From contig CALWRJ010000007.1 of NCBI GenBank assembly GCA_944383915.1, forward strand, positions 1-62,653: 62,653 nucleotides of DNA, read 5' to 3'. This DNA is from an uncultured Clostridia bacterium (lineage in GTDB: Bacteria; Bacillota; Clostridia; Christensenellales; UBA1242). Shown piece after piece: positions 32,862 through 40,550 of the stretch (its first letter is position 1; every line of letters begins with the position of its first letter). Made by a program: the position numbers and the translations under genes. A model generated the notes under the pieces. It had not been told where the DNA came from, searched no databases, and worked only from the letters and a program-made list of their open reading frames with translations.

Positions 32862-32916
32862 AATAAGAATGACCGCCTCTTTTTCGGTCTTATTAAAAGT
32901 AAAAGTAGGTAATTTT

Positions 32917-33618
32917 ATGGCAGAAATAAGTATGTTTGAAGTTGCACACGAAAACACTAACGAATGTGCAGAACAATTAATTATACAAAAAAAGCAAATG
33001 AGCGACCAATTAGGTTTTACTGCAAGACAAGTAATTAAAAACGCGAAAATGGAAATTGCTTTTGCAAAAATTGAAGGCATCAGCGAGGATAGGCTTTCAC
33101 CTATTGCACAGCGTTTACTTTTAGAACCTGAATTGTCCCCAGACGATGTTGTTATTAATATTAGGCTTGCTTACTCACTACCGCAAAAAATCGATGTAAA
33201 AGATGATGAATACACTGACGAATTATTTGGTGCGACTATGGAAGGCTACCAAGAAAAAGACGGAATATTCTTTAAGGTAGTAAACGAATTTAGCAAGGAA
33301 AAAACTTTTATGGAAATTGATGATGACGAACCAACACAAGAACAAACCATAACACCAGAGCAAAAAGTCGAGCAAGAACAAGAAATAGAGCCAACACCAG
33401 AAGTGCAAAAGAAAAAACATTCAAACAAGCGCCGAGAACCATTCTTAAAGCAGGAAATTGTTATTCCTGATGCTTGCACAGTTGTTGAGTACTTCTTGCG
33501 CCCAACCGAAAACGAGCAAAAGGCATATGACAAGGCGCGCAAAGCCAGAGCGGAAGGCGAGCAAAAAATAAAAGTTTTACAAAAAACAATAAGTAAAGAT
33601 GACGAATTAACAAGATAA
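32917..33618 (+). CDS. Hypothetical protein, 233 aa, with acidic Gln/Glu-rich linker
   Basis: A helical N-terminal domain of about 130 residues (NECAEQLIIQKKQMSDQLGF; AKIEGISEDRLSPIAQRLLL; SPDDVVINIRLAYSLP) is joined by a disordered Gln/Glu/Pro linker (EQEQEIEPTPEVQKKKHSNK) to a C-terminal charged helix. I start at the ATG at 32917 (MAEISMF), which has AGGT upstream; an in-frame ATG at 32869 would be at or next to the mRNA start and inside the leader hairpin. No family recognised. Monocistronic with its own promoter and terminator. Confidence 0.6.
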   Translation: MAEISMFEVAHENTNECAEQLIIQKKQMSDQLGFTARQVIKNAKMEIAFAKIEGISEDRLSPIAQRLLLEPELSPDDVVINIRLAYSLPQKIDVKDDEYTDELFGATMEGYQEKDGIFFKVVNEFSKEKTFMEIDDDEPTQEQTITPEQKVEQEQEIEPTPEVQKKKHSNKRREPFLKQEIVIPDACTVVEYFLRPTENEQKAYDKARKARAEGEQKIKVLQKTISKDDELTR

Positions 33619-35593: not shown

Positions 35594-37339
35594 TTATTCA
35601 ACATCGCGCAAATCGGCTTGCGTAATTCTCTTTAAGGCAACGCGGTTTTCGGCATCGAGAGCAAACTTGCTCGGCTCTTGCGGTTTTTTGTCTGCATAGA
35701 AAACGACATTTGCAGGCAAGTTTTCAGCAGTCGCTAAATAAACAACTGTTTCAATACCTTGCTCAATTGACTTACCCTTTCTGCTTTTCATTGCATTATA
35801 TGCTCTTTTAATACCGCTAGCATTTTTCGTATTCAAGCCAGTATTTACAGTGCCTGGGTCAACGCAGTACGCGTGCAAACCTTCTTGATTTGCGTTTTCG
35901 TGGTCATATTCGAGAGCAAACATTAAATCTGCCAACTTTGTTTGTTCATAAATTTTAGACACAAATTTACCCGAACGGTCGCGAAGTTGCTTCCAATTTA
36001 TTTTTTCGTGGTGCGATGCGTAAGTTGTCGTAAATGTGATTACGCGCGCATCAAGCGAACGGTCTAATAGGGGTTGTAATTCGCGAGTTAAGAGAACAGC
36101 AGATAAATAATTTGTCGCCCACATATATTCGCGATTTTCATAAGTTAATTGATAACTTTCGAGATTTGCACCCGCATTGTGAATTAAGACATCGATACAT
36201 TCGCGGTTTAGAGATTCAATTTTTTCCTTTATCTCGTCAGCTAAGACTTTTACCTGACTCATAAGGCTTAAATCAGCCACAAGGTAGTGTATATTAGCGT
36301 CTGGATACTCGTCTAATATCTCGCGAATAGCATCACGGCAAAGACTCGGCTTGCGTCCAATACCGATAACAATATGTCCAAGGCCAGCAAGACTTTTTGC
36401 AGTCGCAAGCCCCATACCCGAAGTAGCCCCTGTTACCACAACAACTTTGTTTGGCATAGGCGAAGCCTTTTTTGTCGAACGCGGTGCGCGTGTAACTTGC
36501 TCTTTCATAGGTGTACGCGGACGGCTTATATTCATTTTCATAAGTGGCGCATTTGATACAATAGGCGCAATTTCTTTCTTGCGCTCCAAAATATCTACGC
36601 TTGAATGTTTTGCAGGTTGCACGCGCTCTGTTTTATTGATTTTCGCAGAAATAATACCTTTTGTGGCAAGTTGCAACTTTTTATAACTCTCGCCTTTTTG
36701 TAATTCATCATCTTCGCTTTCAGCGTCACTTATAACTTGCTCGCTAGTATTTTGCGAATATTCATCACTATTTTCAATATCGGCTTGTGTGTCAGCGAAA
36801 TCGTAATTTTCTTGCTCGATATTTTCGGCTTGTGAAATCTCGTTAATAGGCTCAATATTTTCATTTTGAATAGCCGAATTTTCCGCAACGGGCACTACAT
36901 TTTCAACAATTTCACTTGAAACGGTGCTAGTAATTTGATTTTCGCTAGGAAGCGCTGGAATTTCAGCAAACTCGTTTTCTGTTTTTTGCTTTGCTGGTCT
37001 CCCGCGTTTTTTAGGCTCTTTAACTTCAACAGCACGCGCCGAATTTATCGGCGTACCGTCTTTTCTCGGTCTACCGCGCGGACGAACAACCGTTGGTTCT
37101 GGACGCTCCGAATTAATAGGAGTGCCGTCCTTTCTTGGTCTGCCACGCGGGCGCTTTTCTGCATTCTCAATAATAGGGCGCGTACGCGGTCTACCACGCG
37201 GACGAACTTCCTTTGGCTCTTTTTCGATACGCGGACGCCCACGCGGGCGTTTTTCAGCACTTTCAGTACTTGCCGTTTTGCGTTTTGTGTACGGAGTGGC
37301 AACTTTTTGTCTTACGCGACTTTTTCTCATTTGTTCCAT
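35594..37339 (-). CDS. AT-hook/short-chain dehydrogenase fusion protein, 581 aa
   Basis: Three regions in one frame. Residues 30-117 hold four RPRGRPR AT-hook cores (31-37, 46-52, 63-69, 86-92) and a fifth KKRGRPAK (110-117), which in eukaryotic HMGA and some bacterial proteins bind the minor groove of AT-rich DNA. Residues about 120-295 are acidic, Asn/Glu-rich, and likely disordered. Residues 297-560 form a complete SDR Rossmann domain: TGATSGMG (303-310), VADLS, HNAG (387-390), YEQTK (464-468, catalytic Tyr and Lys), CVDPGTVNTG. The usual catalytic Ser lies in a TTT stretch (437-439), and the domain resembles the retinol dehydrogenase/protochlorophyllide reductase branch. AGGGGGT precedes the ATG. 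Substrate and role unknown. Confidence 0.88.
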   Translation of the reverse strand: MEQMRKSRVRQKVATPYTKRKTASTESAEKRPRGRPRIEKEPKEVRPRGRPRTRPIIENAEKRPRGRPRKDGTPINSERPEPTVVRPRGRPRKDGTPINSARAVEVKEPKKRGRPAKQKTENEFAEIPALPSENQITSTVSSEIVENVVPVAENSAIQNENIEPINEISQAENIEQENYDFADTQADIENSDEYSQNTSEQVISDAESEDDELQKGESYKKLQLATKGIISAKINKTERVQPAKHSSVDILERKKEIAPIVSNAPLMKMNISRPRTPMKEQVTRAPRSTKKASPMPNKVVVVTGATSGMGLATAKSLAGLGHIVIGIGRKPSLCRDAIREILDEYPDANIHYLVADLSLMSQVKVLADEIKEKIESLNRECIDVLIHNAGANLESYQLTYENREYMWATNYLSAVLLTRELQPLLDRSLDARVITFTTTYASHHEKINWKQLRDRSGKFVSKIYEQTKLADLMFALEYDHENANQEGLHAYCVDPGTVNTGLNTKNASGIKRAYNAMKSRKGKSIEQGIETVVYLATAENLPANVVFYADKKPQEPSKFALDAENRVALKRITQADLRDVE

Positions 37340-37501
37340 AATTTACCCCCTTTTGCTCTTGCAAAAGATTTTTCTAAATATATTTTAGCAAATTAAAAAG
37401 TATTTGTCTAATTTTTTTGATATTTTTCACGATTTTTTTACATTTTTCATAAATTTTATAAAATTTAAAACAAAATCACTTAAAATTGCAATAAAATAAC
37501 T

Positions 37502-37533
37502 AAAAACTCACTAGTTTTGCCTAATGAGTTTTT
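37502..37533 (-). terminator. Terminator of the 37554 gene
   Basis: AAAAACTCA / TGAGTTTTT stem with a 14-base loop, T-run on minus strand, 20 bases after the stop. Confidence 0.75.
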
Positions 37534-37553
37534 AATTTTAGAGATAATTTATT

Positions 37554-40550
37554 TTATCCACCATATTTTAATTCGATATATTCAATAATAATTTGCGTTA
37601 AAGTGTATTCGTCTGGTATTTGCTCAATTCCGGGAATCTCGTCCGCGTCAAGTATACCTGCATTAATTAAAACTTGGATAGTAATATTTGACTCAATTTG
37701 TATTCCGTTTGGTTCGCTCAAATCACCGATTGTAAGCGTATCGTAGTTTGTAATAAGGTTAAATATTGCTGGTTTATTTGTACTTCCTATTATTGCAGAC
37801 AAATTTATATCATCGAGCGCATTACTCAAAGTCGTGCTTGCGTTATCGCCAAATAAATCACTTAACGAAATATCTACAACCGCACTAATTACAGGGTCCG
37901 TGCTTGTACTTATTTCAAACAAATCACCAAGCGTCCTATTATCCGCACAAAGCGCATTTTCTAGCGCCTGCCCAGCGCTTATTTCACCTTCTCCTAAAAG
38001 GTCGCGCATATATACGCCATTAATCATAGAAATTAAGCCAGAACTTTCCTCATTACTTAAAAATTCACCTAATGTCGTCCAGCCGTCACTTTCATTTCCT
38101 ATAATTGCATTGATAATTGCATCGCCTGGATTGGCACCTTCGGCAAATAAATCGCTCAGTTTTACATTTGAAACAAGCCCAACAAGTCCGTCACTACTTG
38201 CTATTTCAAACAAATCACCAAGCGTCCTATCGTCAGCACAAAGCGCGTTTTCAAGCGCTTGTCCCGCCGTTATCGTGCCTCTCCCTAAAAGGTCGCGCAT
38301 ATATACGCCGTTAATCATAGACATAATACCGCTATTTTCTTGATTATTTAAGAAATCGCCAAGAGTTGTCCAGCCGTCACTAGCATTTCCAATAATCGCA
38401 TTTATAATCGCATCGCCTGGGTTATCTCCAAAAAGCGCGCTCATTTCAACATTTTGTACATAACTCATAATGCCCGTATTTTCGTTAATTCCCAGCAAGT
38501 CGCCCAAAGTCTGTCCGTCACCGCTCAAAGCGTTTTCAATCACGCTTGATAAATCGTCCGAGCCGAAAAGTTCGCCAACGGTAATATTAAGAATTGAATT
38601 TACCATTTCATTATCACTTGCGGTAGAATTGAGCATTTCGCTTAAAGTCATATTGCTATTTTCAAGCGCGCTCATAATTGCGCCACTCGGGTCATCGCCT
38701 AATAAATCTGAAATCGCTACATCGCCGATTATTCCTAAAATTCCGTCATTTGAACCAATCAGCTCACCCAAAGTGCCAAAATTTTCTAAAAGTGTATCGA
38801 TTAAATCAGGGTCATCAGCAATTTCACGCAAGTTCATATCAGCAAGTCTAGCGAGCGCCGAAGGGTTGTTTTCGCTTCCAATAAGATTGAGAATAGTCGC
38901 ATTCGCGAGTTCGCTTTCAAAAGTGCTTGCAGTTGCATTACTTAAAGCCAACACATACGCTCCAACACTTTCAGTTAAATTCGGTGTCGTGCTGTTTAAT
39001 ATTTCACCGAGTGTAGAGCCGTCATTTGCTTGCAAAATTTCAAGTAGCGTCATTTCACTATATGCACTTAAATTTCCACTTGCAATTTGTTCACTTGATA
39101 AAATTTCATTTAAGGTAAGTCCGCTAATCACTACCCTTAAATCGCTTAAATAAGTGTCTAGCGGAATGTTTCGAAGCGCGCCACTTTCAAAAGTCGTACC
39201 TTCTCTAAATAGCGAACCTAGGGTAACAAAATCGCCAATGTAGACATTTTGGAGCGTGTCATTTATCGCAGTAGTTGGATCATTTAACATTTCGGTTACC
39301 GAAATTGACGCCAAAAAGTCGAGATTACTCATTTCCCCAAAATCAATTATTTTGCCAAGTGTAAAATTAGGGTAAACGGCATTCATTTTAGCAGTCAAAT
39401 TTTCCACCATATTCTCTCCGCTCAAATCTTGATAAGTCACATTTTGCAAAGCGTAGAGCAAGTGGTCAGCAGCAGGGCTAGTTTCGTCTGGCATAGTTGC
39501 TGGGATTTCAATAATTTGATTAAACGGCACCGTTTCTATATAATCAATCATATCAATTAATTTTGTCGCGTTAAATTCGTCCGTTTGCGTAAATTCTAAA
39601 TGAGTTAAATCTAACATCGCATTCAAAAACGCACCGTCAACACTATTTAGCAAGTCGTCAGTCGTAATTTGCGTAATCAATAAATTTCGCAAGCCCGCAT
39701 AAACATCTTGATTGTCGCCTTCTGGATAAGGCATAATTTCAAGTCCAACCGCGTTTACAATTTCTTGAACAGTTAAATTTTCAGAGCCGAAACGCTCGGG
39801 TAACTGTTCTAAAACTTGCGAAATTGTAAGTTCGCTCAAACTCTTTAAATCAGGGTTTTCGGCAGTGCCAACATTGTAATATTTATCAGTTAAGGCTGGG
39901 TAATCTAAATCGTTTAAAATATCAACCTGTGCAGTATTTAATATTTGCTGAACGGTTGTATTGTCATAAAAAACAGGTAGCACCGCCTCGACAAACTCAT
40001 TTAGATTATTTACAATATCTTGTATTCGATACTCCCGAACGGGCTTTGTTTCGTTCATAAAAGTAATGTTTGCCGTATAAATAGCGGTAAGCCCAATTTC
40101 CGTACCTGGAATAGTTGTCGGCAACTCAACACCAAAGTCCTCCTCAATCGTTTGTAGCGTTGCTTCGGTTATACTGTCTTTGTATTCAAGCCCGAGCGCA
40201 AGCAAATCTTTGAGCGCCTTATCTCTAATTTCGCCTTCGATTGGCAACTGTACACCTAGCAGACTTTCAATTTGATTTAGGGTAACATTATAGTAACAGT
40301 ATAAAAATGTACCTACCAAAGACACAATCAAAAAGAATAGGCAAAATAGAAAGCCCATAAAAAATGAGAAAACACCACCGCGTTTTTTTATCACGGTCTT
40401 TGTAACAATTTGCGTACCATCACTGTTTGTGTGTGTTGTTTCAGTAACGCCTTTCTTTTTCTTTGTTTTTGGCGTTTCCACCACTTCGGGCGAAACTGTA
40501 TTTTCTATTTTTTCAGAAATTATTTCGACATCGTCTTTTTTCTTTTTCAT
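37554..40550 (-). CDS. Large membrane-anchored helical-repeat protein, 998 aa
   Basis: A basic cytoplasmic N-terminus (1-57) leads into one membrane segment (59-87) and an approximately 910-residue extracytoplasmic region. That region consists of many short helical repeats built around xTLGDLLxI, LSDLFGxxP and AIxNAI-type motifs (TLGEILNST, TIGDLSEPN, TLSEMLNST, SDLLGDDPSGAIMSAL), about 20-45 residues apart. Two units of 97 residues near the C-terminus are nearly identical (NPGDAIINAII, GWTTLGDFL, MINGVYMRDLLG, AGQALENALCADDRTLGDLF), reflecting a 291-bp tandem duplication. No family recognised; Cys is rare. AGGTGG precedes the ATG. It may form an extended solenoid on the cell surface; function unknown. 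Confidence 0.75.
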   Translation of the reverse strand: MKKKKDDVEIISEKIENTVSPEVVETPKTKKKKGVTETTHTNSDGTQIVTKTVIKKRGGVFSFFMGFLFCLFFLIVSLVGTFLYCYYNVTLNQIESLLGVQLPIEGEIRDKALKDLLALGLEYKDSITEATLQTIEEDFGVELPTTIPGTEIGLTAIYTANITFMNETKPVREYRIQDIVNNLNEFVEAVLPVFYDNTTVQQILNTAQVDILNDLDYPALTDKYYNVGTAENPDLKSLSELTISQVLEQLPERFGSENLTVQEIVNAVGLEIMPYPEGDNQDVYAGLRNLLITQITTDDLLNSVDGAFLNAMLDLTHLEFTQTDEFNATKLIDMIDYIETVPFNQIIEIPATMPDETSPAADHLLYALQNVTYQDLSGENMVENLTAKMNAVYPNFTLGKIIDFGEMSNLDFLASISVTEMLNDPTTAINDTLQNVYIGDFVTLGSLFREGTTFESGALRNIPLDTYLSDLRVVISGLTLNEILSSEQIASGNLSAYSEMTLLEILQANDGSTLGEILNSTTPNLTESVGAYVLALSNATASTFESELANATILNLIGSENNPSALARLADMNLREIADDPDLIDTLLENFGTLGELIGSNDGILGIIGDVAISDLLGDDPSGAIMSALENSNMTLSEMLNSTASDNEMVNSILNITVGELFGSDDLSSVIENALSGDGQTLGDLLGINENTGIMSYVQNVEMSALFGDNPGDAIINAIIGNASDGWTTLGDFLNNQENSGIMSMINGVYMRDLLGRGTITAGQALENALCADDRTLGDLFEIASSDGLVGLVSNVKLSDLFAEGANPGDAIINAIIGNESDGWTTLGEFLSNEESSGLISMINGVYMRDLLGEGEISAGQALENALCADNRTLGDLFEISTSTDPVISAVVDISLSDLFGDNASTTLSNALDDINLSAIIGSTNKPAIFNLITNYDTLTIGDLSEPNGIQIESNITIQVLINAGILDADEIPGIEQIPDEYTLTQIIIEYIELKYGG
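37916..38400. repeat. 291-bp tandem duplication inside the 998-aa protein gene
   Basis: Matching stretches lie exactly 291 bases (97 codons) apart, for example CCAGCCGTCACT at 38079 and the matching CCAGCCGTCAC at 38370, and AAATCACCAAGCGTCCTAT near 37921 and 38212. Differences are few, so the duplication looks recent. Confidence 0.85.

Follow-up and report, generated by a model that had tools for sequence, protein, structure and literature searches.

An AT-hook array joined to a short-chain dehydrogenase fold in one genus of Christensenellales: a candidate DNA-bound cofactor sensor or scaffold

Background

A single gene of an uncultured Clostridia bacterium joins an array of AT-hooks to a complete short-chain dehydrogenase (SDR) domain, raising the question of whether its product is an enzyme kept on DNA only incidentally or a chromosome protein built upon an enzyme fold. 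We address this question using the 62,653-nucleotide stretch of DNA that carries the gene (hereafter the window), together with related loci from the same genus, a sister genus (g16), the family and the order. Should the SDR part prove to bind NADP(H) and the tail DNA, the protein would couple the chromosome directly and physically to the state of the cofactor; we know of no link of this kind in bacteria.

Results

Gene structure and the AT-hook array

The hook-SDR frame runs on the minus strand from an ATG at 37339 to a stop at 35594, 581 codons with no internal stop. Its parts and flanking signals are:

35594..37339, minus strand: complete gene for AT-hook array, acidic linker and SDR domain, 581 aa (open frame, Pfam)
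36989..37249, minus strand: residues 31-117, the AT-hook array, made up of four RPRGRPR copies and a single KKRGRPAK
36635..36985, minus strand: acidic linker, residues 119-235, charge -21, predicted disordered, with a low-confidence helix at 217-236
36461..36634, minus strand: second linker, basic, residues 236-293 (alignment)
35597..36457, minus strand: SDR domain, residues 295-581 (Pfam, structure model, alignment), with TGATSGMG at 303-310, R329 after beta 2, N410, Y464 and K468, and T439 occupying the catalytic-Ser column
37346..37350, minus strand: Shine-Dalgarno-like GGGGG before the ATG
37382..37410, minus strand: promoter-like site, TAGACA-17-TAAAAT, TG preceding the second hexamer (consensus match only)
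37498..37537, minus strand: terminator-like hairpin between the upstream gene and the hook-SDR gene (consensus match only)

The first-pass annotation had described five hook cores, an acidic linker and a full SDR domain in one uninterrupted frame with a ribosome site, and each of these elements is borne out. RGRP cores begin at residues 33, 48, 65 and 88 (each inside RPRGRPR) and at 112 (KKRGRPAK), five in all; when the protein was shuffled 5000 times, the average was 0.011 cores and no shuffle had more than 1. The Pfam AT_hook model spans only 13 positions and the protein scores right at its cut-off of 17.4 bits, falling below it in the protein scan (17.0) and above it in a genome scan of the hook-SDR with its neighbours (17.8). 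Net charge alternates along the chain: +25 over residues 1-118, -21 over 119-235, +9 over 236-293 and -2 over the SDR part. A structure model built from an 11-row alignment (mean pLDDT 57.8, pTM 0.49) gives pLDDT below 50 for nearly all of residues 1-286, as in a disordered stretch for the hook region. The N-terminal half thus has the composition of an HMGA-like tail, with several RGRP cores in basic flanks adjoining an acidic segment that is predicted to be disordered.

Recent slippage of a DNA repeat was considered as the source of the hooks and rejected, as the copies within one gene differ in codons; in most copies the amino acids of the core are kept and the codons are different. In pairwise comparisons, dS was undefined in 17 of 27 region-by-pair cells and 1.5 or more in the remainder. 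The promoter-like site is to be read with caution, as such consensus sites occur in the window no more often than in shuffled sequence.

Distribution of the fusion

All ten genomes of the genus that were examined encode the fusion, with 4-6 RGRP cores per protein. Hooks, linker and SDR lie in one open frame in nine of them and also in the tenth, G005; the search marked stops in G005 and in the g16 genome G105, and these are upstream of the start codon. The arrangement that would have undone the first-pass reading, two parts encoded separately and broken by a frameshift where they meet, was seen in none of the ten. Because ten different genomes share the architecture, a frameshift, chimera or assembly artefact is rejected as its origin. 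Across nine pairs, identity is 49-78% in the hook region, 28-60% in the linker and 66-85% in the SDR domain. Conservation in the linkers is low except at short motifs; in the basic linker PAKH (242-245), NIS (270-272) and P277 are invariant among nine aligned genus proteins.

The AT-richness of the genome, offered earlier in support of minor-groove binding, turns out to be weak support because two relatives with loci of 43-44% GC (L049 and L047) still carry five RGRP cores each, plus one IGRP core. Hook number does not track GC content in the few genomes compared.

A family search with the nine-row alignment returned matches at E 1e-20 in 17 of 298 genomes: the ten of the genus, two of g16 (G084 and G105) and five that are much weaker (G109, G122, G161, G175, G201) and have no hook cores. 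The g16 proteins, present in two of the three genomes of that genus that were searched, join the same SDR to a shorter basic, lysine-rich tail, which in G084 includes a single TRGRPKK core and in G105 no core at all. The third g16 genome, G024, gave no match, an absence that says little because its copy of the upstream gene is itself cut off by a contig end. The 12 tailed SDRs (ten of the genus, two of g16) form one clade with support of 100/99 in a tree computed without rows L018, L057 and L199-L219. In an order search the SDR matched at E 1e-25 in 17 of 395 genomes, the window genome included; the other frames listed there are 248-390 aa long, and none of the 17 that were read carries a GRP[RK] core. 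One scan of viral contigs, of limited reach, yielded no relative among 28 pattern matches.

Two members of this wider set deserve separate mention. The SDR of G109 (L046) is a distant one with a lysine-rich start of about 60 residues; it has no hook core, keeps the catalytic Ser and falls outside the tailed clade, so a lysine-rich start, as read from its sequence, is not exclusive to that clade. The protein of G003 (L055:7980-9506, plus strand) is the most diverged of the tailed SDRs, with a five-residue insertion. Its SDR domain may simply be decaying, since its NAG and PG motifs have been lost on a long branch. In this genome the pair of hook-SDR and membrane-protein genes lies beside parA, parB, yidC and rnpA.

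RG-rich basic segments can bind RNA, and the lysine-rich tail of G105, with its lack of hook cores, would suit a protein whose tail holds RNA or other polyanions rather than AT-rich DNA, making the whole an RNA-linked SDR. Cores such as PKRPRGRPRK, close to the HMGA consensus TPKRPRGRPKK in the available excerpt of PMC11354804, and the acidic stretch that follows the hooks as in HMGA2 and CarD, fit that idea poorly, and we consider it distinctly unlikely.

The SDR domain and its catalytic site

Pfam adh_short covers residues 298-507 at E 1.1e-20, and the TGATSGMG, HNAG and YEQTK motifs reported earlier are all present. This part of the structure model is confident, with block means mostly of 80-93 (lower at about 391-410, 451-460 and 491-530). 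The domain has the Rossmann fold with TGxxxGxG, and all 12 tailed SDRs retain GxxxGxG, the alpha-4 Asn, and the Tyr and Lys of YxxxK, as expected of the SDR superfamily.

The classical Asn-Ser-Tyr-Lys tetrad is incomplete. The window protein has Thr439 in the Ser column, as the first-pass annotation had noticed, and its relatives are variable there: across the 12 tailed proteins the column reads T, S, R, R, K, S, N, S, N, K, D, N. Ser is thus kept in 3 of 12 tailed SDRs versus 39 of 39 others. The frames of these other SDRs were picked by BLAST, with L200, L208, L215 and L217 excluded as duplicates of loci already included; the 39 rows are not independent, several coming from one genome. A one-residue insertion in 7 of the 12 makes the assignment of the column uncertain. 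The NAG motif is altered in 5 of 12. Such variation at the Ser position suggests that selection is not maintaining ordinary reductase chemistry, and the earlier label of 'redox enzyme' is doubtful, Ser being kept in only those three.

One feature complicates this conclusion. A Thr immediately precedes the Ser column (Thr438 here) in 11 of the 12 tailed SDRs, and with such conservation it could, judging from the alignment, take the place of Ser. The protein might then be an active NADPH-dependent reductase merely held on DNA, with a tail that places or concentrates the enzyme and chemistry running through Tyr464, Lys468 and Thr438. The constancy of Asn, Tyr and Lys favors this reading, as do the nearest folds to the SDR model, which are enzymes, with LPOR the nearest of all (structure comparison with VIA-align; 20-24% identity to LPOR structures). 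It sits less easily with the drift of the Ser column and the altered NAG motifs, and the only neighbour found to be constant encodes a membrane protein rather than a metabolic enzyme; on balance an active reductase is doubtful. Membership in the LPOR family itself is not indicated: the LPOR equivalog TIGR01289 is absent among the best 25 of 148 NCBIfam matches for the window protein, and two sister-genus proteins score 52.6 and 52.1 bits against its cut-off of 331.35.

AT-hook arrays in the family

AT_hook matches above cut-off occur in 162 of 298 family genomes versus 0 of 14 control genomes in a search limited to E 0.05; at E 10, 7 of the 14 controls have matches, none of them above cut-off. 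With the limit of E 0.003 used for the class search, which the window genome misses, 87 of the 298 family genomes are matched, and 5 of 391 class genomes, two of those five from the family.

Fusion partners were read at 90 loci (L066-L155), which are the best-scoring listed places rather than a random sample and repeat some genomes. Frames with at least two hooks number 77, grouped by single-linkage BLAST with hooks masked: 67 fall in one membrane-protein cluster, 3 are the SDR of the genus, 3 form a cluster with L115, which has NifU_N, 1 is a Peptidase_M41 (FtsH-like) protein and 3 are singletons, two of them fragments and the third L103. AT-hook arrays in this family thus occur on several unrelated proteins and are not special to the hook-SDR, which in the window genome is the sole frame with more than one AT_hook match.

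A subset of 60 loci comprises 44 complete array frames, 7 incomplete ones and 9 loci without a two-hook frame. At least two, mostly three, membrane segments are predicted in 42 of the 44 complete frames, with the hooks in the C-terminal half. Members of the membrane cluster (e.g. L118, L123, L117, L099) have 2-11 hooks in that half and, by eye, a coiled-coil-like middle; these are possible membrane-nucleoid tethers to judge by their predicted layout, arguably more striking than the hook-SDR. The homologue of the membrane-cluster protein in the window genus has no hook core at 5 loci, two of which are ended by the locus edge.

The smaller groups are varied. L115:2283-4358 (plus strand), L077 and L097 encode an IscU-like NifU_N domain followed by an AT-hook array, with 9-12 hooks in the three frames (of these, the Pfam scan covered L115). 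L066:1243-2757 (minus strand) is an FtsH-like protease (Peptidase_M41) with three C-terminal AT-hooks. L103:2-1744 (minus strand) is a membrane protein with six N-terminal AT-hooks that looks like a signal peptidase by eye and matches AT_hook alone in Pfam.

The upstream membrane protein

The one constant neighbour of the tailed SDR lies directly upstream:

37554..40550, minus strand: conserved upstream neighbour, 998-aa protein (frames, membrane prediction)

A single transmembrane segment is predicted close to its N terminus, followed by a long region that appears repeat-like by eye, and it matched nothing in Pfam or NCBIfam. All 12 genomes with a tailed SDR have a homologue directly upstream and co-directional (in G005 the contig end cuts off the N-terminal part of this homologue). 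The intergenic gap is 22-88 bp in 8 of the 12 and 212-386 bp in the other 4; in the window it is 214 bp and holds the terminator-like hairpin and the promoter-like site. Of 148 family genomes searched, 19 match the upstream gene, and they belong to 3 of 42 genera: the window genus, g16 and g2. At the g2 loci that include the downstream flank (5 of 8), no frame tagged as SDR by a simple motif follows it. A parA gene is on the hook-SDR contig in 5 of the 10 genus genomes, approximately 3-21 kb away, and on a different contig in the other five.

This linkage could mean that the main role of the hook-SDR is to tether envelope to nucleoid by docking on the cytoplasmic N terminus of the membrane protein. 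The constant, often close adjacency would be explained, as would the proximity of parA, and the other genera of the family carry their hook arrays mostly on membrane proteins, the homologue of which shows no hook core at the 5 loci read in this genus. The longer gaps in 4 genomes argue against it, as do the terminator-like and promoter-like sites that separate the two genes in the window and the g2 loci in which the upstream protein lacks an adjacent SDR frame. As a main role we regard tethering as improbable.

On the other flank, the window encodes a 249-aa protein (32869-33618, plus strand) with no Pfam match above cut-off; in three relatives (L047, L049, L053) a homologue of it is found on the far side of the hook-SDR.

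Discussion

Our preferred interpretation, to which we give about even chances, is that the hook-SDR is a DNA-bound, NADP(H)-binding sensor or scaffold with an SDR fold and not a classical dehydrogenase. The basic hook tail would hold the protein on the nucleoid, its most likely location because the tail has the make-up of those of HMGA and CarD. The Rossmann domain retains the residues for NADP(H), which it most likely still binds for that reason, and appears to have been freed from the classical Ser-Tyr-Lys reductase site. The protein is probably oligomeric, in which case several hook arrays per oligomer could bridge DNA, and the state of the cofactor might tune that bridging; the single-pass membrane neighbour would be its likeliest partner. 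The NAD(P)H-sensing nucleoid factor proposed in the first-pass annotation gains some support from the drift of the catalytic Ser with the cofactor residues kept; DNA binding, cofactor binding and sensing are themselves inferred.

Several observations temper the sensor or scaffold interpretation. Tyr and Lys are kept in all 12 tailed SDRs, which is unexpected for a purely structural domain; the Thr before the Ser column could be catalytic in its place; the hook region is less conserved overall than the SDR domain; and the protein with the nearest fold, LPOR, is catalytically active.

A broader proposal, unlikely as a whole, would make hook arrays, in this family of gut Clostridia with small genomes, a portable module that joins different parts of the cell to the chromosome. 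Here the module would sit, in the window genus, on an NADP(H)-binding SDR pseudoenzyme made beside an envelope protein, and the resulting redox sensor on the nucleoid would tie the organisation of the chromosome to the state of the envelope and of the cofactor.

A reductase-fold protein with a DNA-gripping tail and a drifted Ser suggests a chromosome-seated cofactor binder rather than an ordinary enzyme, and the genomes span tail-less SDRs, a lysine tail, a single hook and 4-6 hooks, a natural gradation in which the passage from enzyme to chromosome protein can be traced. Because a single family of bacteria bears HMGA-like arrays on several proteins unrelated to one another, a general use of such tails is testable.

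Comparison with known systems

Rossmann proteins are already known as regulators: NmrA, HSCARG and CtBP respond to NAD(P) and act via partner transcription factors. To our knowledge none of these has an AT-hook array, unlike the hook-SDR, among whose 7 Pfam matches (up to E 1) there is no NmrA profile. Nor do we know of a hook tail in the LPOR or PRK06197/PRK05854 families, and NCBIfam scores for these subfamilies are far below their cut-offs (105.3 versus 282). HMGA proteins, which are eukaryotic, have no folded enzyme domain that we know of, again unlike the hook-SDR. WhiB7 combines an iron-sulphur redox link with a single hook, on a domain unrelated to SDR.

AT-hooks themselves are also known from bacteria, in CarD and WhiB7, the latter described in the excerpt of PMC11354804 as binding DNA through its hook. 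HMGA and the hook-SDR are alike, as far as the excerpts show, in having several PKRPRGRPKK-like hooks and an acidic region in a disordered stretch; HMGA2 has an acidic region with its AT-hooks (PMC4482583, excerpt), and the HMGA hook consensus is the one cited above. In the literature searched, most subscription papers lying outside it, we found no HMGA-like array combined with an SDR, and no paper linking AT-hook motifs to membranes in Firmicutes, which is weak evidence of absence; on that footing the hook-SDR appears to be a new architecture. Its closest bacterial precedent is CarD of Myxococcus xanthus, in which an intrinsically unfolded HMGA-like region is composed of an acidic segment and four RGRP AT-hooks (PMC4374960, excerpt). 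Both proteins are bacterial and pair an acidic segment with RGRP hooks, but CarD bears its hooks C-terminally on an RNA-polymerase-binding domain, whereas the hook-SDR bears them N-terminally on an SDR, with CarD_CdnL_TRCF absent from its 7 Pfam matches up to E 1.
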